Shown here: positions 15,801 through 43,030 of the stretch, piece after piece
Numbering within the stretch: position 1 is the first letter of the stretch
Layout: each line of letters begins with the position of its first letter
DNA from: a virus
Virus record (IMG/VR): IMGVR_UViG_3300021185_002716
Location: 1-56,075 of that record
Reading direction: 5' to 3' (one strand)
Length of the DNA: 56,075 nt
Translations under genes and position numbers: made by a program
The notes under the pieces: model-generated
What the model was told of the DNA's origin: nothing
Seen by the model: only the letters and a program-made list of their open reading frames with translations
Database searches by the model: none

Positions 15801-18800
15801 TTAAGAAGGCTTTATCACTTCCTGCCGAAGCAGACTTTGATATTAAGACATCAAGTCTAAATGAAATGATTGAGTCTAGTGCGGAGAAGTTGATGACCGC
15901 TACGAGCATAGATCCAACAACAGATAACGAAATAGATGTTGATGCTATAGACATGCAAAGGTATAAAAACCCAGAGCGTGAAGCAATATCAGAATTTAAA
16001 GCACTGCAAGAAACTCTTAAGAACGACCCAACGCTATCACTCATAGAGCCCGTGATGAAGGATGGGAGGTATCAGTTTGAAAAACGAGGTAAAAAATTAA
16101 AGATCAAAATATCAAGCCAATCTTATAACATGGTTAATGGTCTTGAAAAATATTTTGAAGGTACGCTTGAACAAAAAATAAATCAGATTGGTGACAAAAT
16201 TGTAGATGAATATAATGCTAATTCCACTGTTGAAGAAGTAGTGAAGGGAATGGGTTGGTATAAAGATCTGCACACAAGAATGAGAAATATTTTTGGAGGT
16301 AGAACTAATTTCTTCGGAAGACTTATTGGGGCAACTTCAGCACAAACAGACGTTAGAAATAATTACAAATATGCTGTAATGGCATTGAAAGGTTATTCAA
16401 ACGGTGCTTACGATTCTTATATAGAAGAATATAAAGAATTTATAGATAGAGTTGAGCAGTATCAAAACGAAGAAGAACTTAACCAATTTTTTAATGAGTA
16501 TAAAGGAAGGGCTATTAATGCTGCAAAGAATTTAGGTCAAAGCACAAAAATATTTGATGTAAGTCCAGACCCGAAAGACATCGATGAAACAAAAAGAAAG
16601 TTGCTGAATCTATGGCCAAAGGCTAATGTATTGTATAGAACAGACAACCCTACTTTAAGGTATGGTATAAATAGTCCGGCTACCGCTAAAGTTTTGGCGG
16701 GTATCTGGTTAAATCAAACTCAACAAACTAAAACAAATAATTTTTATAAAAACGTAGTTGGTATAACAACAAACCCAACTATTGATTTATGGGCCGCCCG
16801 AACAATCAGAAGAATGATTTATGATGGGAATATTGATAGATACAGAATCCCAGAACGTGCAGAAGCCGGTGTTAACGAAAAGGCTTTGGTCAATTCAGGT
16901 AACATATCTGACTATAGACTTGCCGAAGAGGTTATAATTAATGCCTCAGAAAAACTAGGAATGGATCCCGATGATCTTCAGGCATACTTATGGTTTGCTG
17001 AAAAGGATCTATGGCTGAAAAATGGTTGGGCAACTGGGGCCGCAGCAAAGAAAGGAGACTTTAGGGATGAGTCATCTAAAGAGGAAATAACAAGATACTA
17101 TTTAGGTTTAAGCACAGAAAGACCAAGTTACAAGAACCCTGTTTTGGACAATCAAGACAAACTGGAAATGCTTAAAGAAGAGGGGGTTAGTATTGAAAAA
17201 GATTTAAGAGGTCAAGATTTAATTTCTTTAAAAGTAAATACAACCAAATCACAATATTTAAACGATCCTGAAAGAGCATTTGATGCTGAGATGATTGTGG
17301 AGTCGAGCCAAGATATGACTCCTGTATTAAAGAGAGTGATTGAATCTGCAAAAAAATATGAGCAGGAATCTGTTTTCATGTCAGAGGTTTTACCTATTGA
17401 CGAAAGAATGGATCCTGAAACTATGGAGAGAGAGTTAACTAAAAGACCAAATGCAAGACCCGCAGTTGAATTACAGTTTGTAAATCCTTTAAGTTTTGAT
17501 GAGGCAACTAAGTTTGCACAAGACAATATAGAAAAAGAGGGTGTCCAAATTGGTCCTGTGAAAACTGCCATATCTGGTTACACTATAATAACTAATGAGT
17601 CAGGCGATAAGGCTATAGGTATTAAATATCAATTTGTTCCAGAGTTCGTTTTTGAAAATGAAGAGGATATAACAGATGATAATATAAGGCAAGCGTCCAT
17701 AGATTGGGTTAACAACGCAGCAGAAACTCAAATAAATTTAGAGAATAACGAAAATGTTTTATACTTTTACAAACATTATGTAGATACTTTCGTTGCTCAC
17801 AACAATCAGTACAATGAAATTCTAAATAAAATAAAAAATGGATCAGAAGACATATATAAAGGAACTAGCAAAACACGCACAAAGCAATACTACCAATCCA
17901 AAGGTAGATCAAGTATCGAATCAGAAACAAGTTCAGGTATCGATGCACAAAGAAACCAAGATGGAGGAGATAGACCCCGCTTCTCTGGAACTGTTCCGTC
18001 AGATGATGGCGGATCGATATCACAAACTGAACATCGAAGATTAGACACTCAAAAACTTCCGAGTGCATTATCAGGTTTACTAGGAAAACTTAAGGACAAA
18101 GGATTTACTTCTGCTGAATTAATTTACGGTATCAAATCCTATTCATTAAAAGTCAACGGTAAAGAACTTACCACAGAACAGGCACGAGTTGTATTAAGTA
18201 AATACATGAGTGACAATGGATTCAGACAAAGAGGTTTTGAAACTGGATCAGTTGAGAAAGCCAAAGACCAAGACGTAGGAAAAGAAGAGGTATACGATTG
18301 GGTGAACAACAACCCTAACTACTACAAGACTATGGATATGAAAGAAACCATGGATCTTGTATTAGAGGATGTAAATTCAAGAGGTGGTTTTGAAAATGTA
18401 GATGTCTTAAAAGATTTACTTAAGACAGACACAACAGTGAAAGAACTAGCAAGAGTTCAACTAGCACGTCAAGCAGCGTTACATCATTACGGTTTAAAGG
18501 TTAGCAAACTTAGATCAGAAGGTGCATCAACAGCAGAGATAGATTCTGTTATTGAAACCATGGGCCAGATAGAGCGTGCATTGGCAGGGGATGGTACATA
18601 TTCCGGACAAGCGTCTGCCGCACTTAGATCTTGGACCGCTCAAACTGCAACCACTTTAATTGACAGGACTGAACTGGCAATGGAAAAATTCAATGAAGAC
18701 ATGGACAACAAAACTAAGTTTGGCCATTTCATTCATAGGTTATTCGGGGGTAAACAAAAATTAGAAAGCACTACGCTATCTGCCGAACAGAAAAGTAAGA

Positions 18801-21900: not shown

Positions 21901-22330
21901 ACCTAAAAAAAAATTTAAAGAAACTAAGGTGGGGTCTTTCCTTAGTAAAGTGGCACCTAGCCTTTTAGGTACGATGGGTGACATACTACCTGATGCGGGA
22001 GTTCTCGGTATCGTAAAGAACCTAATTGAAAAAGAAGATCCAAAAGTATTAGCCCCTCAAGATAAAGAAACAGCACTTAAGTTGTTAGAGCAGGATGCAA
22101 TAGAGATGCAAGAGATCACAAAGCGTTGGACCGCAGACATGAGTTCAAAGTCTTGGCTTGCTCAAAACGTAAGGCCGTTAACGCTTGTATTTTTCTCCGT
22201 TTCATACGTTGCGGGGTGGTATATGGACTATTCTTTAGATTCTATATCTGGAGTTTTATCTCTAATTGTTGGAGCATACTTCGGATCCAGAGGGGTTGAG
22301 AAAGTGATGGGCAATAATAGACATAAGTAA
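21893..22330 (+). CDS. Holin, 3-TM type
   Basis: A 145-residue protein. The C-terminal half carries the motif SWLAQNVRPLTLVFFSVSY, a further hydrophobic segment and the ending GAYFGSRGVEKV, the hallmark of the 'Holin of 3TMs, for gene-transfer release' family (PF11351). The N-terminal half is amphipathic and charged. It would form inner-membrane lesions that let the amidase out. It overlaps the upstream coiled-coil gene by eight bases, and the next gene by one base (TAATG). Confidence 0.85.
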   Translation: MSKPKKKFKETKVGSFLSKVAPSLLGTMGDILPDAGVLGIVKNLIEKEDPKVLAPQDKETALKLLEQDAIEMQEITKRWTADMSSKSWLAQNVRPLTLVFFSVSYVAGWYMDYSLDSISGVLSLIVGAYFGSRGVEKVMGNNRHK

Positions 22331-30787: not shown

Positions 30788-31324
30788 TTATTTTGTCTTA
30801 TTTACAAGTATCTTCTTTAAAGTTCTGTTTAACCGGTAAGAACAGTTGCGATCATTCATAACACCCCTTAAAACAGAATTTTCTATTCCCAAAAAGTTTT
30901 CACGGATTAAGTCCCATGAGTTCATCTCAATGTTACTAAGTAGTTCGTCATATTTTTTAGTCATATCGTTCAAAAGTCCCTTTAATTCAACAACATCTAT
31001 AATATTAACATCACCTAATTTACCCTTACCTAGATCCGTGTCTGTTATAATCTTCAGACAAGTTGAGTAGTTTCTCCTAAATTCTTTGTCTGCTTCAGCG
31101 AGCGAAATGGCTTGCTTACAGGCATACATTATTGTGGCGTGATCTCTTTTCAACACCTTTCCAATTCTATTGTAGGGTGCACCTAAAAAATCTCTAGTTA
31201 ACTTACACAGTATAAAGCGAGCGTCTACATTATCACGAGTCCTGTCCCCGGAAAAAGGATTTGCTCCAGTTACTCTGTTGACGACATCGCCTATAAATTT
31301 CATATCTTCTTTTAGTCTACTCAT
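30788..31324 (-). CDS. DnaA domain IV-like initiator protein
   Basis: A 178-residue protein. Residues about 33-72 (ARFILCKLTRDFL, then YNRIGKVLKRDHATIMYAC) match the C-terminal DNA-binding domain of DnaA, where 'GRDHTTVMHA' reads the DnaA box. The AAA+ part of DnaA is absent. The remaining 100 residues are helical and unrelated. It may bind phage-origin DnaA-box-like sites, recruit the host initiation machinery, or compete with host DnaA. Confidence 0.75.
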   Translation of the reverse strand: MSRLKEDMKFIGDVVNRVTGANPFSGDRTRDNVDARFILCKLTRDFLGAPYNRIGKVLKRDHATIMYACKQAISLAEADKEFRRNYSTCLKIITDTDLGKGKLGDVNIIDVVELKGLLNDMTKKYDELLSNIEMNSWDLIRENFLGIENSVLRGVMNDRNCSYRLNRTLKKILVNKTK

Positions 31325-32330: not shown

Positions 32331-32912
32331 TTAAGTTAGTGATCTTTTTAGTTCATCCCTTAACATTCCGTATTCAACCTCTAGCCACTCAACAAATTGC
32401 TTTTCTTCTCTTTTCGGTATTGCTATGGTTACCGATGATGAAAACACGTTAGTAGTTGGGCTTGAGATCACCGATACACGGACAGGACAATGGACGTGTC
32501 CATTCATAATTTCTTCTACAAGATCATTCAAGTCATGCTTCCACGGGACATCACTCCAGTAGTCCGTACCCCATCCCGACTCTATCTCCTTCCAACCATT
32601 GGACAGATCTATTTCATAGTATCCTCTCCATGCATTTGAAGATTTCCAAACCACATCATCTATTGACAAATGCTCATGATCATCCTCTCCCCAGATTTCT
32701 TCATGGTAATCGTTGAATGCCATACCTAGTCCAGGAACAAAAAAGAATTTCTTACTTTCCTCGTCTTGGGGTGACCAAGTTAGTATCTGTGTTGCACTCT
32801 CCCACATAGAATGGTAGCAGTGTTCACATATTTGGTTACCATCCTTATCAAAGGAGTGCCAATCATCTTGGTCATAAGTCTCCTCGCACGAAGTACATTT
32901 AAATTTATCCAT
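32331..32912 (-). CDS. Zinc-finger-containing accessory protein, last ribozyme-processed gene
   Basis: A 193-residue protein with an N-terminal zinc ribbon (Cys6, Cys9, Cys29, Cys32) and an acidic, W-rich middle (EDDHEHLSIDDVVWKSSN), ending in a basic helix. Function unknown. Its mRNA is predicted to begin at 32942, where the hammerhead ribozyme at 32938-33019 cuts, leaving a 30-base leader (aaataataatttaaactaaa then caaaATG). Confidence 0.6.
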   Translation of the reverse strand: MDKFKCTSCEETYDQDDWHSFDKDGNQICEHCYHSMWESATQILTWSPQDEESKKFFFVPGLGMAFNDYHEEIWGEDDHEHLSIDDVVWKSSNAWRGYYEIDLSNGWKEIESGWGTDYWSDVPWKHDLNDLVEEIMNGHVHCPVRVSVISSPTTNVFSSSVTIAIPKREEKQFVEWLEVEYGMLRDELKRSLT

Positions 32913-32937
32913 TTTGTTTTAGTTTAAATTATTATTT

Positions 32938-33019
32938 ACAAAGACGGAGGGCTGAAAATCATGCTCGTTCAAAACATATCCCTCCGTTTCGCCTGAATCT
33001 CACAGGCTCATCAGTTTGC
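32938..33019 (-). ncRNA. Hammerhead ribozyme 4 (type I)
   Basis: Minus-strand reading: stem I GCAAA (33019-33015) / TTTGT (32942-32938); core CTGATGA (33014-33008); stem II GCCTG/CAGGC with loop TGAGATT; core GAAA (32990-32987); stem III CGGAGGG/CCCTCCG (7 bp) with a 28-base loop; GTC at 32945-32943. Cleavage is predicted between 32943 and 32942. It begins at the first base after the stop codon of the 59-residue gene and ends 25 bases before the ATG of the zinc-finger gene. All conserved core bases are present. The large stem III loop is its only departure from the other copies. Confidence 0.93.
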
Positions 33020-33199
33020 TTATTTTTTAAAAAAGTATTTATCTTCCTTATCTATTACTTCGACTCCAATGATCTTTGATGTGCCATGATCTTTGTTTGC
33101 CTTATTCAAATAGTTGTTGAGGTGTCTATCGTCATTAAAGTCTCTCACATAAGAGCGATAGTTTCCTGACCAGTTTTTAATATCTATTCTAACCTTCAT
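33020..33199 (-). CDS. 59-residue hypothetical protein
   Basis: A short gene (MKVRIDIKNWSGNYRSYVRD at the start) with alternating strand and helix pattern, ending DKEDKYFFKK. It is preceded by a usual AT-rich leader and followed directly by hammerhead ribozyme 4, whose first base follows its stop codon. No ribozyme separates it from the gene at 33212. It is probably a real small host-interaction protein; no family recognised. Confidence 0.6.
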   Translation of the reverse strand: MKVRIDIKNWSGNYRSYVRDFNDDRHLNNYLNKANKDHGTSKIIGVEVIDKEDKYFFKK

Positions 33200-33211
33200 C
33201 GTTAACTTTAT

Positions 33212-33565
33212 TTAAGTTTTAATTATATCTGTTATTAATTCACACACCACATAGTAAGATGCTTTTATGCTTTGAGCATCAAACTCTTGATAAAGAATGT
33301 CATTACCTTTTACTATTAGTGACTGCCAATCTTTATCTATTGGTTGATAGTTTTTCTCGAAAGTATATCCAAGAGTTTCTATCTTTTCTATTACTGGCAT
33401 CAGCCAATCCCAAGATTTGTGAAATTGCATTGGTGCAATCGTACCATCATTGTATTTAGGTGAGTAGCATTTGTTATGATTTACCTCGTACCCCATAAAT
33501 TCTGCTATAAGTCTATTACTCCTACCTTCCATATTAATTGTTTTAGTTTTCATATTAGTATGCAC
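33212..33565 (-). CDS. Hypothetical accessory protein (true start may be 33532)
   Basis: Up to 117 residues. Three in-frame ATGs are possible. The third, at 33532, yields MEGRSNRLIAEFMGYEV and has a leader (aaaactaaaacaattaatATG) that resembles the shared leaders of the ribozyme-processed genes. The protein is rich in aromatic residues (FHKSWDWLMPVIEKI) and ends in a helix. It follows the gene at 33555-33851 with at most a short overlap, so the two are on the same processed mRNA. Confidence 0.55.
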   Translation of the reverse strand: MHTNMKTKTINMEGRSNRLIAEFMGYEVNHNKCYSPKYNDGTIAPMQFHKSWDWLMPVIEKIETLGYTFEKNYQPIDKDWQSLIVKGNDILYQEFDAQSIKASYYVVCELITDIIKT

Positions 33566-33851
33566 TTACAGGTTTTAATTGATTTTGTTCAAACGTCTCC
33601 CATTCCCATTCGTCATCGTGAACAGTTAGACTGTGGAAATACTTCTGTAGGTTTTCAGCAATGTATTCAAGTTCATCACTTTCTCTCCAATCTTTAATGG
33701 TGCAGTCACCATCTATTCTGCCGAGCATTCCTCCACCCAAATAGTTTTGGTATGCCGTCATCTTTTCTCCAAAATACCCAAAGTTGTCAAGGGCAATCTC
33801 TATTCCTCCACCTCGGTAGGAAATCTCTTGTCTGATGATATTAAATTTCAT
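33555..33851 (-). CDS. Conserved-looking hypothetical accessory protein
   Basis: A 98-residue acidic protein with the motif MTAYQNYLGGGMLGRI, a pattern that I have seen in small proteins of flavobacterial phages, followed by 'LEYIAENLQKYFH' and a W/E-rich stretch. Its mRNA 5' end should be created by hammerhead ribozyme 3, leaving a 27-base leader. Function unknown. Confidence 0.6.
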   Translation of the reverse strand: MKFNIIRQEISYRGGGIEIALDNFGYFGEKMTAYQNYLGGGMLGRIDGDCTIKDWRESDELEYIAENLQKYFHSLTVHDDEWEWETFEQNQLKPVSAY

Positions 33852-33873
33852 TTTGTTTTAGTTTAAATTATTT

Positions 33874-33931
33874 AACCTGACTCGATCCGGAGACCGAGTT
33901 TCGCCTGAATCTCACAGGCTCATCAGAGGTT
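33874..33931 (-). ncRNA. Hammerhead ribozyme 3 (type I)
   Basis: Minus-strand reading: stem I AACCT (33931-33927) / AGGTT (33878-33874); core CTGATGA (33926-33920); stem II GCCTG/CAGGC with loop TGAGATT; core GAAA; stem III CTCGGTC/GATCGAG (7 bp, one G-U) with loop TCCG; GTC at 33881-33879. Cleavage is predicted between 33879 and 33878. It begins at the base after the stop codon of the upstream gene (33932) and lies 22 bases before the next ATG. Stem II is identical to that of ribozyme 4, while stem III matches ribozyme 2, with a compensated change. Confidence 0.95.
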
Positions 33932-34390
33932 TTATTTTTCTACAAAGTCAAACTTCTGGCGGAGGTTACCCTCGTGGATTGCAGTAGGAAATAGTTCTTG
34001 CATAAGTTCTAATTCTTCACCATACAGGAATCTGTCTCCATCTTTTTTCAATCTCTCCTCCATTTCCTTCCCGATCCAAGAGTCTTGTAGAAGTACTCTG
34101 TAAACATCTTTGCTTATGTCTTTCCAACCCCTCTCTTTATCCCAAAGAGTATCGTCTGCGTAGTCACCATCTATTGTGATATTATCACCCGACCATCGTC
34201 CGATGATCTCAGACTCCGAAGGATGGTCTCCACCTCCACGACCATTGCCGTTTGCTAGAAGTAAAGAGAGACCTTGTAGCATGCCTCTACCATCAGATGT
34301 AAATTCCATTAACTTCATACCATTCCCAAACGTGTGTGGGCTTAGGTATTCCTTTTTAGTTTTGTTGAACACTTTATAGTATTGTCCCAT
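33932..34390 (-). CDS. Conserved hypothetical protein (GQYYKVFNKTKKEYLSPH type)
   Basis: A 152-residue protein whose start (MGQYYKVFNKTKKEYLSPH) and the segment GNGRGGGDHPSESEIIGRWS followed by GDNITIDGDYAD match a pattern that recurs in hypothetical proteins of phages and bacteria. Its mRNA 5' end should be created by hammerhead ribozyme 2, and its stop codon is followed directly by ribozyme 3. No function known to me. Confidence 0.65.
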   Translation of the reverse strand: MGQYYKVFNKTKKEYLSPHTFGNGMKLMEFTSDGRGMLQGLSLLLANGNGRGGGDHPSESEIIGRWSGDNITIDGDYADDTLWDKERGWKDISKDVYRVLLQDSWIGKEMEERLKKDGDRFLYGEELELMQELFPTAIHEGNLRQKFDFVEK

Positions 34391-34413
34391 GACTTTAGTT
34401 TTAATTATTATTT

Positions 34414-34477
34414 AACCTGACTCGGTCTGTATCTATTGACCGAGTTTCGTCCCATCACAGGGTACTCATCAGAGGTT
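34414..34477 (-). ncRNA. Hammerhead ribozyme 2 (type I)
   Basis: Minus-strand reading: stem I AACCT (34477-34473) / AGGTT (34418-34414); core CTGATGA (34472-34466); stem II GT(A)CCC/GGGAC with loop TGTGAT; core GAAA (34448-34445); stem III CTCGGTC/GACCGAG (7 perfect pairs) with a 10-base loop; GTC at the cleavage site. Cleavage is predicted between 34419 and 34418. It starts directly after the stop codon of the 34478-34981 gene. Stem II differs from the other copies yet is still paired and opens with the required G-C. Confidence 0.95.
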
Positions 34478-34981
34478 TTACTTGATTTCTGTAAAGTGAT
34501 TAATAAGCATATTCAAGCCCGAAACAATGCCTTTGTGTTCTGACATAGTGTGTGAATCGTTTACCCATTCATCATCTGAAACAATATCTATCATTACATT
34601 TTTGATATCCTGAATTGAGTAAGTCTTCTCCGAGTTATTGATAAGAGTTTTGTAGAAGTCGTACACCTCTATTACCTTGCTCATTGTTTGGTCGAAGAAT
34701 GATAATTGGTGGGGGGTGACCTTGTCCTTGTACTTATCCATAAAGACCCTTAGATACTCTACATCTAAATAAACTCCTTCAGGAAGATGACCATCGAGTA
34801 AATCATAAAGACCTCCCTCAATTCTAGTGATGGTATTATCCCAGTCATTAATTGGAATAACTTTACGAAAGGAATACTCTATACCTGAAACGTCTTTGAT
34901 TAAGCCCTTAATATGTGTTAGATGTATAGGGTCTTTTACTTTTGATGTTGGGACTTTTGGTTGTGGTTTTGTAGTTGTCAT
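34478..34981 (-). CDS. Hypothetical helical accessory protein
   Basis: A 167-residue, largely helical protein (LIKDVSGIEYSFRKVIPIN, DKVTPHQLSFFDQTMSKVIE) with a P/T/K-rich flexible N-terminus. No recognised family. The leader (30 bases, ending in actgaaaatcATG) is predicted to be set by hammerhead ribozyme 1, and ribozyme 2 follows its stop codon directly. Confidence 0.6.
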   Translation of the reverse strand: MTTTKPQPKVPTSKVKDPIHLTHIKGLIKDVSGIEYSFRKVIPINDWDNTITRIEGGLYDLLDGHLPEGVYLDVEYLRVFMDKYKDKVTPHQLSFFDQTMSKVIEVYDFYKTLINNSEKTYSIQDIKNVMIDIVSDDEWVNDSHTMSEHKGIVSGLNMLINHFTEIK

Positions 34982-35005
34982 GATTTTCAGTTTAAATTAT
35001 TATTT

Positions 35006-35057
35006 GACATTGACGCTCCGAAGAGCGTTTCGACCATTAAGGTCTCGTCAGAATGTC
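35006..35057 (-). ncRNA. Hammerhead ribozyme 1 (type I)
   Basis: Minus-strand reading: stem I GACATT (35057-35052) / AATGTC (35011-35006), 6 perfect pairs; core CTGACGA (35051-35045, with C at the variable position 7); stem II GACC/GGTC with loop TTAAT; core GAAA (35031-35028); stem III CGCTC/GAGCG closed by a TTCG tetraloop; GTC at 35014-35012. Cleavage is predicted between 35012 and 35011. All three stems differ in sequence from the other three copies but keep pairing, which is strong covariation evidence for function. It lies 11 bases after the stop of the first gene in the cluster. Confidence 0.95.
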
Positions 35058-35068
35058 TTTAGTCTCCC

Positions 35069-35386
35069 TTATCTCATGCCCAATTGTGATCTTTGCTCCC
35101 TTTCAAAGTCAGCATCTGTGTTTGCACTGTCAATTTGTGATCTTGTAGTTGTCGTAATTTCTGTTAACTTGGTAACCTCCGTAATCCCGTCAGTCATTGA
35201 TAGACTAAAACCTGCCCGGGTCAAGTTATTGATGACACTAGCACAGCAATCTATTATTCCAATCTTAAATTCCGATGATCCAAGCCCTCCCACGAAGTTA
35301 TCTTTTGGCTTGTTGATGATGATTTTTGTTGAGTGATTTTTTGATATGATCTCAATCGCTTGTAAAAAAGTCTCTAATTTTCTCAT
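35069..35386 (-). CDS. First gene of the ribozyme-partitioned cluster, hypothetical
   Basis: A 105-residue protein with two N-terminal alpha/beta units (METFLQ-like helix, then STKIIINKPKDNFVGGL and IDCCASVINNLTRAGFSL) and a T/S-rich, charged C-terminus. No family recognised. Its leader (aatttaaactagaaaatcATG) matches the leaders that ribozyme cleavage gives to the other cluster genes, but here the 5' end would come from transcription start at the promoter 35428-35435. Confidence 0.55.
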   Translation of the reverse strand: MRKLETFLQAIEIISKNHSTKIIINKPKDNFVGGLGSSEFKIGIIDCCASVINNLTRAGFSLSMTDGITEVTKLTEITTTTRSQIDSANTDADFEREQRSQLGMR

Positions 35387-35592
35387 GATTTTCTAGTTTA
35401 AATTAATATTTGTTTTGAACGATGGTACAAATATAAAACAAAAAATCAATACGTCCGACACGGCTAACTAAAATAAATCGTCTCAACAGATCTAAAATAC
35501 ATGAAATTTTTTTTTGGGGGGTAATGAACAAACGTACAAATTAGGGGGTGTTCAACTCCCGTTTACTATAGTTGGCGGGATATCGAAACTTG
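35387..35592. other. Intergenic stretch between ribozyme cluster and tRNA
   Basis: It holds the promoter at 35428-35435 and, further upstream, a run of nine T followed by six G at about 35510-35520. A second box (TAATTTG, minus strand, near 35537) resembles a degenerate promoter. No gene or ribozyme core was found. Confidence 0.4.
35428..35435 (-). promoter_or_regulatory. Bacteroidota-type -7 promoter box for the ribozyme cluster
   Basis: TATATTTG on the minus strand matches the TAnnTTTG -7 element of Bacteroidota promoters exactly. Transcription would begin near 35420, giving a leader of roughly 34 bases before the ATG at 35386. A clean TTTG -33 box is not visible at the usual distance. Confidence 0.5.
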
Positions 35593-35664
35593 TACCTTCG
35601 GAAGGAATCGAACCTTCATCACTGGTTTAGAAGACCAGGGTTTTATCCGTTAAACTACGAAGGC
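35593..35664 (-). tRNA. tRNA-Arg (anticodon UCU)
   Basis: A complete 72-base cloverleaf on the minus strand. Acceptor GCCTTCG/CGAAGGT (7 pairs, first one G-U); D-arm GTTT/AAAC; anticodon arm CTGGT/ACCAG with loop CTTCTAA, anticodon TCT; 4-base variable loop TGAT; T-arm GAAGG/CCTTC with loop TTCGATT; discriminator A. The CCA end is not encoded. It reads AGA codons, which this genome uses as its main arginine codon, so it likely supports phage translation. Confidence 0.95.
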
Positions 35665-41920: not shown

Positions 41921-43030
41921 CTATAATTTTAAATTCAAACCTGCTTTTATATAAACCAAGTCTTTGTCCCAGAACTTAGTTTTTTCATACTCGGTGAATA
42001 TACCTATTCTCTTATTGATGTTCCATCCAAAAATAATCCCGTAATTATAATCAACCCAGTCATCACTTCCGATAAAGGTTTCATAACTAAATTCTTCATC
42101 TCCATGTATATGTTTGTGTTTAGGAAATAAGTTTCCCCAACTATGAACCCATAAGTTATCTCTGTAGTGATAATAATCTACACCGACTACAGCAGATAAG
42201 GTTCCTAAAATTCCAATAGCATCTAGCATTGTTTTATTATAGTCATTAACAATTTTAGTATAATCATTTCTACGAAAATCTAAATCTGTATCTGCAACTC
42301 TTTCACCGTCTTCGTCTACCCAATACCAATCTGATTGATCAATTTGCCCGTCAAAGTCTGCGTCAATACCGTAGCCCACATCTTGAAATCCATAATTATA
42401 TGCTAGGTCCCACCAGTTTGCAGGATACTCATTACCGTCATCATCAACCAACATTGAGTTTAAATATTCATCAATAGGATTATATCCGTATGGCTTATGA
42501 GTTCTAACCGCAACTCCGGCAGATAAACTAAACTTTTTTCCAATAGGTAATCTTAGTCTTAAATCTGCTGTTTTATAATTAAGAGATATTAGCCCGTTGT
42601 TTTGCATTTCAACTCTGCCTATCCAATACTTGGCAATGTACCTTATTAAATATCTTTCGCTTTTAAAGTCCCTACCCTGTTGTCTTCCTTTACTATATTG
42701 AAATAAATATTCCAAACCTTTGATGTTCCCTATGTTACTGGATAAGGATGAGTTTTGCTCACTACCATCATAAAACCTATTAGTTCTGTTTTCATAATCC
42801 ATACGAGCAATTTTTCTTATACCATATGAAACAACATAGTCATTTGATCTTTCTGCCGTCACATCTCTTACCTCACCGTCCTGTGTAACAAAATACATAG
42901 GCGTAGTAAAAAGAGGACTGGTTTCTGTATACGAACCAAATACTGTAGAATATTTAAAAACATCTCTTAATATCTGAGCGTCAACCGATGTGCTAAACAG
43001 AACTAATAATAATAGTAATTTTTTCATCAA
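41921..43030 (-). CDS. Phage-encoded outer-membrane beta-barrel-like protein
   Basis: A 369-residue protein with a signal peptide (KKLLLLLVLFSTSVDA, cleavage before QILRD) and a mature part rich in aromatic beta strands. The pattern DVFKYSTVFGSYTETSPLF, then YFVTQDGEVRDVTAE and YGIRKIARMDYENRTNRFY, is one I recognise from proteins of many marine phages, where it is called an outer-membrane protein. Bacteroidota phages may use it to alter the host surface, for example for superinfection exclusion; that is an inference. It overlaps the secreted thioredoxin-like gene by four bases. Confidence 0.75.
   Translation of the reverse strand: MMKKLLLLLVLFSTSVDAQILRDVFKYSTVFGSYTETSPLFTTPMYFVTQDGEVRDVTAERSNDYVVSYGIRKIARMDYENRTNRFYDGSEQNSSLSSNIGNIKGLEYLFQYSKGRQQGRDFKSERYLIRYIAKYWIGRVEMQNNGLISLNYKTADLRLRLPIGKKFSLSAGVAVRTHKPYGYNPIDEYLNSMLVDDDGNEYPANWWDLAYNYGFQDVGYGIDADFDGQIDQSDWYWVDEDGERVADTDLDFRRNDYTKIVNDYNKTMLDAIGILGTLSAVVGVDYYHYRDNLWVHSWGNLFPKHKHIHGDEEFSYETFIGSDDWVDYNYGIIFGWNINKRIGIFTEYEKTKFWDKDLVYIKAGLNLKL

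Follow-up and report, generated by a model that had tools for sequence, protein, structure and literature searches.

Results

Four hammerhead ribozymes in a run of small phage genes

The DNA analysed here (the window) spans positions 1 to 56,075 of the IMG/VR virus record IMGVR_UViG_3300021185_002716. This 56-kb virus carries terminase, portal, head, tail, primase-helicase, exonuclease and integrase genes, and because its terminase was closest to those of phages of Flavobacterium and Cellulophaga, its host probably belongs to the Bacteroidota. On the minus strand, from 35386 to about 31756, lies a run of small co-directional genes without known domains, and within 2.1 kb of this run four elements with the features of type I hammerhead ribozymes (HH1 to HH4) each occupy the intergenic gap between two co-directional genes. 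Our own search of the letters found all four complete, at the same coordinates and with the same predicted cut sites as an earlier note on this DNA had given:

35006-35057, minus strand: HH1, type I hammerhead; stem I GACAUU/AAUGUC, stem II GACC/GGUC, stem III ACGCUC/GAGCGU; predicted cut 35012/35011
34414-34477, minus strand: HH2, type I hammerhead; stem I AACCU/AGGUU, stem II GU(A)CCC/GGGAC with one bulged A; predicted cut 34419/34418
33874-33931, minus strand: HH3, type I hammerhead; stem I AACCU/AGGUU, stem II GCCUG/CAGGC; predicted cut 33879/33878
32938-33019, minus strand: HH4, type I hammerhead; stem I GCAAA/UUUGU, stem II GCCUG/CAGGC, long stem III whose loop is conserved in sequence; predicted cut 32943/32942

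Read from 5' to 3', every element consists of the 5' strand of stem I, CUGANGA, the stem II hairpin, GAAA, the stem III hairpin, UC, the cut and the 3' strand of stem I, with the stem III hairpin ending in U and followed by C at position 17. A descriptor scan combined with RNA folding confirmed CUGANGA, stem II, GAAA, stem III and the closing stem I, as described earlier, in 4/4 elements. The conserved core (C3UGANGA9, G12AAA15.1, U16.1 and H17) was present in all of them, the core-adjacent pairs 10.1-11.1, 15.1-16.1 and 1.1-2.1 were formed, and the three helices were arranged around the core with stem I open; the pairs of the helices are retained in the orthologues. The hammerhead fold was the minimum-energy structure for HH2, HH3 and HH4, and for HH1 it was near the centroid fold.

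A strict descriptor scan of the window returned three elements, as compared with three matches in total among 100 Markov shuffles of the whole window (about 0.03 per window), and HH2, in which one A bulges out of the 5' strand of stem II, was recovered once the descriptor allowed a bulge. With a looser scan of other loci, 26 hammerheads of types I to III were found in 0.45 Mb of real phage DNA versus 2 in 1.34 Mb of shuffled DNA. A covariance model (R1) built from 37 phage type I hammerheads, HH1 being among the training sequences, scored the four elements at 63, 26, 35 and 18 bits, and a scan of the window with this model gave no further match below E 0.01. None of the four reached the Rfam gathering cut-off, and only weak sub-threshold matches were obtained; the best score against RF00163 (Hammerhead_1) was 21.9 bits versus the curated cut-off of 34 bits, which is a library threshold and not a biochemical definition. 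Taken as a set, the four elements look like real type I hammerheads, far above chance, and are predicted from their sequence to be self-cleaving.

Stop and start codons flank the ribozymes at near-constant distances

The stop codon of the upstream gene directly adjoins stem I in HH2, HH3 and HH4 (0 nt) and lies 11 nt from it in HH1. The distance from the predicted cut to the next ATG is 30, 28, 27 and 30 nt for HH1 to HH4, so that the following leaders are predicted to remain on the downstream side:

34982-35011, minus strand: post-HH1-cut leader, 30 nt, AAUGUCAAAUAAUAAUUUAAACUGAAAAUC, before the next gene
34391-34418, minus strand: post-HH2-cut leader, 28 nt
33852-33878, minus strand: post-HH3-cut leader, 27 nt
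32913-32942, minus strand: post-HH4-cut leader, 30 nt

These leaders are A/U-rich and resemble the leader of the first gene of the putative operon. The motif ATTTAAACT was found on the minus strand directly before three of the post-ribozyme genes and before the first gene, the HH2 leader carrying the variant ATTAAAACT; the sole additional minus-strand copy of ATTTAAACT in the window is at 42465. The genes concerned are:

35069-35386, minus strand: first gene of the unit, 105 aa, no family match; its upstream leader AAUAUUAAUUUAAACUAGAAAAUC resembles the post-cut leaders
34478-34981, minus strand: gene between HH1 and HH2, 167 aa, no family match; its stop codon adjoins HH2
33932-34390, minus strand: gene between HH2 and HH3, 152 aa, no family match; its stop codon adjoins HH3
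33555-33851, minus strand: first of three genes between HH3 and HH4, 98 aa, no Pfam or PHROG match; homologues in about 100 viral stretches
33212-33553, minus strand: second gene between HH3 and HH4, 113 aa; missing from the close relative L126
33020-33199, minus strand: third gene between HH3 and HH4, 59 aa; its stop codon adjoins HH4
32331-32912, minus strand: first gene after HH4, 193 aa; homologues in L126, L260 and L286 likewise follow an HH4 orthologue

Two features suggest a single transcript carrying HH1 to HH4 and these genes: their shared orientation, and the lack of any terminator-like site from 35386 to 32331 on the minus strand. Upstream of the first gene, farther out than its leader, TATATTTG fits the -7 element of Bacteroidota promoters; a regular-expression search upstream of this gene found no -33 element or full Bacteroidota promoter, and a sigma-70 promoter scan was not clearly above its shuffles.

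The same geometry was observed at other loci. In loci retrieved by protein similarity, and not by the ribozyme, 27 type I hammerheads were available, and an ATG was located 15-45 nt past the cut in 85% of them, compared with 20% for random positions and 0% for the opposite strand. An upstream stop near stem I was present in 78% versus 11% at random, a figure that stops within the ribozyme itself inflate (see below). When loci were fetched by the general core pattern, the corresponding values were 61% versus 15% for the ATG and 66% versus 7% for the stop.

Two further features of the neighbourhood were recorded. A tRNA-Arg (UCU) gene is located at 35592-35664, just upstream of the ribozyme operon, and a tRNA is also found near the homologous gene in two relatives (L127 and L128). 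At 30788-31324, a 178-aa protein in a phage operon matches a DnaA C-terminal DNA-binding domain (Pfam PF08299, above cut-off).

Ribozymes persist while the genes between them turn over

Relatives were fetched with the protein encoded between HH2 and HH3, and the more distant stretches L260, L286 and L335 were reached through the stem II loop motif, so that at least one ribozyme in each of these three was selected on loop II and none on its stems. The material consists of metagenomic contigs, some of them fragmentary, and several comparison sets were chosen by pattern.

The close relative L126 keeps all four ribozymes, with 249 of 256 positions identical (97%) versus 86-89% in longer flanking blocks. 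Five of the seven differences are in loops, and the other two form one compensatory pair, in which U-A is replaced by C-G in stem II of HH4. When the HH4 orthologues of four phages were aligned, 5 of 19 pairs had changed on both sides and pairing was intact in every instance; among HH1 orthologues, 2 of 16 pairs were doubly changed. In L260, HH2 retains the bulged A, and most of its stems II and III has been exchanged for other sequence that still pairs. The earlier note had observed that the stems differ between the four copies and still pair, which is correct, but had taken this difference within one genome as covariation; the covariation comes from the orthologue comparisons. With regard to a possible tertiary contact between loop II and stem I, the loop II consensus and an A flanking stem I on both sides are strongly conserved among the phage relatives, a set partly chosen by loop sequence.

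The genes between the ribozymes turn over and the ribozymes persist. In L126, the protein encoded between HH1 and HH2 is 49% identical to that of the window across the part that could be matched, HH2 and HH3 enclose one additional gene, and one gene fewer lies between HH3 and HH4. Most of the inter-ribozyme genes differ in L260 and L286, and HH4 is still located before the same gene family.

The loop of HH4 stem III (32952-32979, 28 nt) has a sequence resembling UGUUUUGAACGA...AUGAUUUU in the window, L126 and L286, and a looser version in L260. Conservation is not required at this place, and the loop may bind something or modulate cleavage.

In the relative L129, a type III hammerhead (47.3 bits) stands before the homologue of gene 33932-34390, at the place where the window has the type I element HH2, and type III elements are also found nearby in L127 and L260. 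Such elements were noted just before genes at L129 7922-7976, L129 9073-9126, L127 4680-4734 and L260 6232-6282, and several of the type III elements in these three stretches are preceded by a GGGGAC...GUCCCC-like palindrome. In the slot before the same homologue, L128 and L130 contain elements which, judged by eye, have core-adjacent mismatches and have probably decayed. A tie between the ribozyme and one gene family was considered and rejected, since a type I hammerhead is located directly upstream in 5 of 67 distinct homologues of the gene after HH3.

Hammerhead arrays are common in IMG/VR

The general hammerhead pattern was found in at least 120 IMG/VR stretches, and arrays are common, with up to 9-10 elements per locus. 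The largest contained nine in G012/L133 (L133 948-5219) and ten in L350 (5978-12696), type I and mostly one per gene, and several further stretches contained 3-8 per locus. In cultured phages, Cellulophaga phage phi18:3 has one type I hammerhead at 21904-21958 on the minus strand, between gp050 and gp049, located 7 nt past the gp050 stop and 34 nt before the gp049 start. Flavobacterium phage elemoF has one type I match, at 16045-16102, in which stem II is mismatched, and one type III candidate close to position 17894 of its record. Among cultured phages, a nucleotide search with the region and a protein search with gene 33932-34390 gave no match. The 5-bp class of type I hammerheads also occurs in records of Legionella, Paenibacillus, Clostridium, Bathyarchaeota and Patescibacteria (L523-L540); the Legionella copies are near-identical across species.

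In 26 non-redundant arrays, which were not chosen by stem I, the stem I strands were interchangeable in 39 of 61 neighbouring pairs versus 5.5 expected, compared with 15 versus 9.5 (1.6x) for stem II and 7 versus 2.2 (3.2x) for stem III in the same pairs. Sharing of stem I far above that of stems II and III was also seen within individual arrays (L133, L005, L076, L350, L267 and others). In the window, stem I is interchangeable for HH2-HH3 only. The shared stem I may reflect descent from a common cassette, a shared 5' leader that is under constraint, or base pairing between the ends of messages.

Discussion

Probable partition of a phage transcript

We consider it probable that HH1 to HH4 cut a shared phage transcript into five shorter mRNAs with near-uniform 5' leaders, a reading whose starting points, namely sequence, fold, covariation, conservation and placement, were observed directly. 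Hammerhead cleavage leaves a 2',3'-cyclic phosphate on the upstream product and a 5'-OH on the downstream one. Embedded in one polycistronic transcript, each type I element would fold as it is transcribed and cut 27-30 nt before the next start codon; the upstream message would retain its own stop codon and end in the folded ribozyme with a 2',3'-cyclic phosphate, and the downstream message would begin with a 5'-OH, followed by a short A/U-rich leader free of structure, similar to the one before the first gene of the operon. The five resulting mRNAs would each be insulated from upstream RNA structure and would possibly differ in stability. We infer that the RNA is co-transcribed, that it is cleaved in the cell with these end chemistries, and that expression benefits. 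Partition by ribozymes, as proposed in the earlier note, is the best reading of the placement between co-directional genes, but not every gene is separated: genes 33555-33851, 33212-33553 and 33020-33199 remain together in one HH3-HH4 unit. The further point of the earlier note, that partition would need no host RNase, is a conjecture. A similar tandem set studied by Perreault et al. (2011; PMC3088659) cleaved in vitro and in E. coli, which is in favor of partition.

Several points weigh against this interpretation. Cleavage of the RNA of this particular phage is a prediction from its sequence. The overlap of stop codons with the ribozyme is partly built in and its frequency is inflated, because a UGA can be read in one frame of CUGANGA and stops also occur in some stem I sequences; stops that end right before stem I, or at its first bases, are free of the core-UGA bias. 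Since a type I hammerhead occupies the slot in only those 5 of 67 homologues, the genes do not need the ribozyme. Finally, a clean 5' leader cannot be a universal benefit, because the cut of a type III element in such a slot would keep the ribozyme attached to the downstream message.

It is conceivable, and we hold it tentatively, that the main benefit is mRNA stability and not partition, in that a 5'-OH end is poorly attacked by decay that depends on a 5'-monophosphate, and the upstream message acquires structure at its 3' end. This follows from the known end chemistry and from the type I topology, which leaves the folded ribozyme attached to the upstream message at its 3' end, and RiboJ approximately doubles transcript abundance in E. 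coli (PMC6206723). The present observations fit both readings, and type III elements in similar slots would put the structure on the opposite fragment. In many cases the upstream stop lies next to or within stem I or the core, so that a ribosome in the act of terminating would sit over the ribozyme, and the elements could act as coupling devices: the ribosome ending the upstream gene would unfold stem I and block the cut, and cleavage would report upstream translation. We regard this as unlikely, as a hammerhead that folds as soon as it leaves the polymerase may be faster than the ribosome, HH1 is located 11 nt from the stop codon, and compact phage genomes give tight spacing regardless.

The frequent sharing of stem I, as opposed to stems II and III, means that excised messages in many arrays have complementary ends and could be circularised or end-protected; the 5' end left by one ribozyme would pair with the stem I strand of the following one, and either the ribozyme or an RtcB-type ligase would seal the junction. 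That hammerhead arrays make closed or end-paired phage mRNAs in this way appears very unlikely to us. The complementary strands in consecutive pairs are what speaks for it, but shared ancestry of a ribozyme-leader cassette could yield the same pattern, and the two stem I variants in the L350 array are not ordered to match their neighbours. The ends are complementary in the window for the HH2-HH3 unit only, to which the idea would apply, and in L260 and L286 for none; circularisation was considered owing to the shared stem I and is not favoured for the window. Perreault et al. sought circular products and saw none (PMC3088659). Least probable of all is that the elements are relics or passengers without a role. 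The patchy distribution among homologous loci and the apparently decayed elements of L128 and L130 would fit this reading, but the ribozymes are better conserved than the surrounding genes, their changes keep pairing, and their placement is non-random.

Comparison with known systems

The earlier note knew of no serial set of hammerheads dividing a gene cluster, a view contradicted by Perreault et al. (2011), in whose report multiple hammerheads flank single genes or short gene blocks in prophages, three tandem sets were cleaved in vitro, one of them also in E. coli, and long transcripts were proposed to be processed into operon- or gene-length mRNAs (PMC3088659). De la Pena (2017; PMC6155905) and a 2023 paper on permuted hammerheads (PMC10085705) repeat the clustering and call its reason open; no later report of larger arrays was found in the openly licensed literature, which is weak evidence of absence. 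What seems new is the detail, namely the tight stop-ribozyme-leader-start geometry, the type III element in place of type I before the same gene in a relative, the turnover of genes between conserved ribozymes, and the stem I shared within many arrays. The purpose of phage hammerhead clusters has been a standing question since 2011 (PMC6155905; PMC10085705). The constant geometry, the exchange of type I for type III before the same gene, and the hammerheads or candidates in the cultured phages phi18:3 (host C. baltica #18) and elemoF (host strain BAL314) make a direct test practical in laboratory phage-host pairs.

If at least two close hammerheads flanking phage genes are taken as the mark of the clusters of Perreault et al., the window contains such a cluster, with terminase, portal and integrase in the same record (PMC3088659). 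The same processing hypothesis was already stated there for clusters such as the triple set around ardA of Agrobacterium tumefaciens. The present phage and genes are different, all four elements are type I, and the stop and start spacing is near-constant; cleavage was demonstrated for the clusters of that study, whereas the elements of the window are known from sequence alone.

Compared with the type I family in Rfam (RF00163, clan CL00010), the elements share the core, the three stems, A-U at 15.1/16.1, the GUC triplet and the open stem I, but they score under the gathering cut-off, their stem I has just 5-6 bp, and in HH4 stem III is long and carries a conserved loop. The type III hammerhead (RF00008), which is located directly before the gene 33932-34390 homologue in L129, has an identical core and is circularly permuted, so that, unlike type I, the ribozyme would remain on the downstream message. 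Synthetic insulators of the RiboJ type are engineered parts unrelated to the elements of the window and offer an analogy of function, in that a uniform 5' end results when a self-cleaving ribozyme stands immediately upstream of the ribosome-binding region; a gene placed behind RiboJ is expressed more strongly (PMC6206723).
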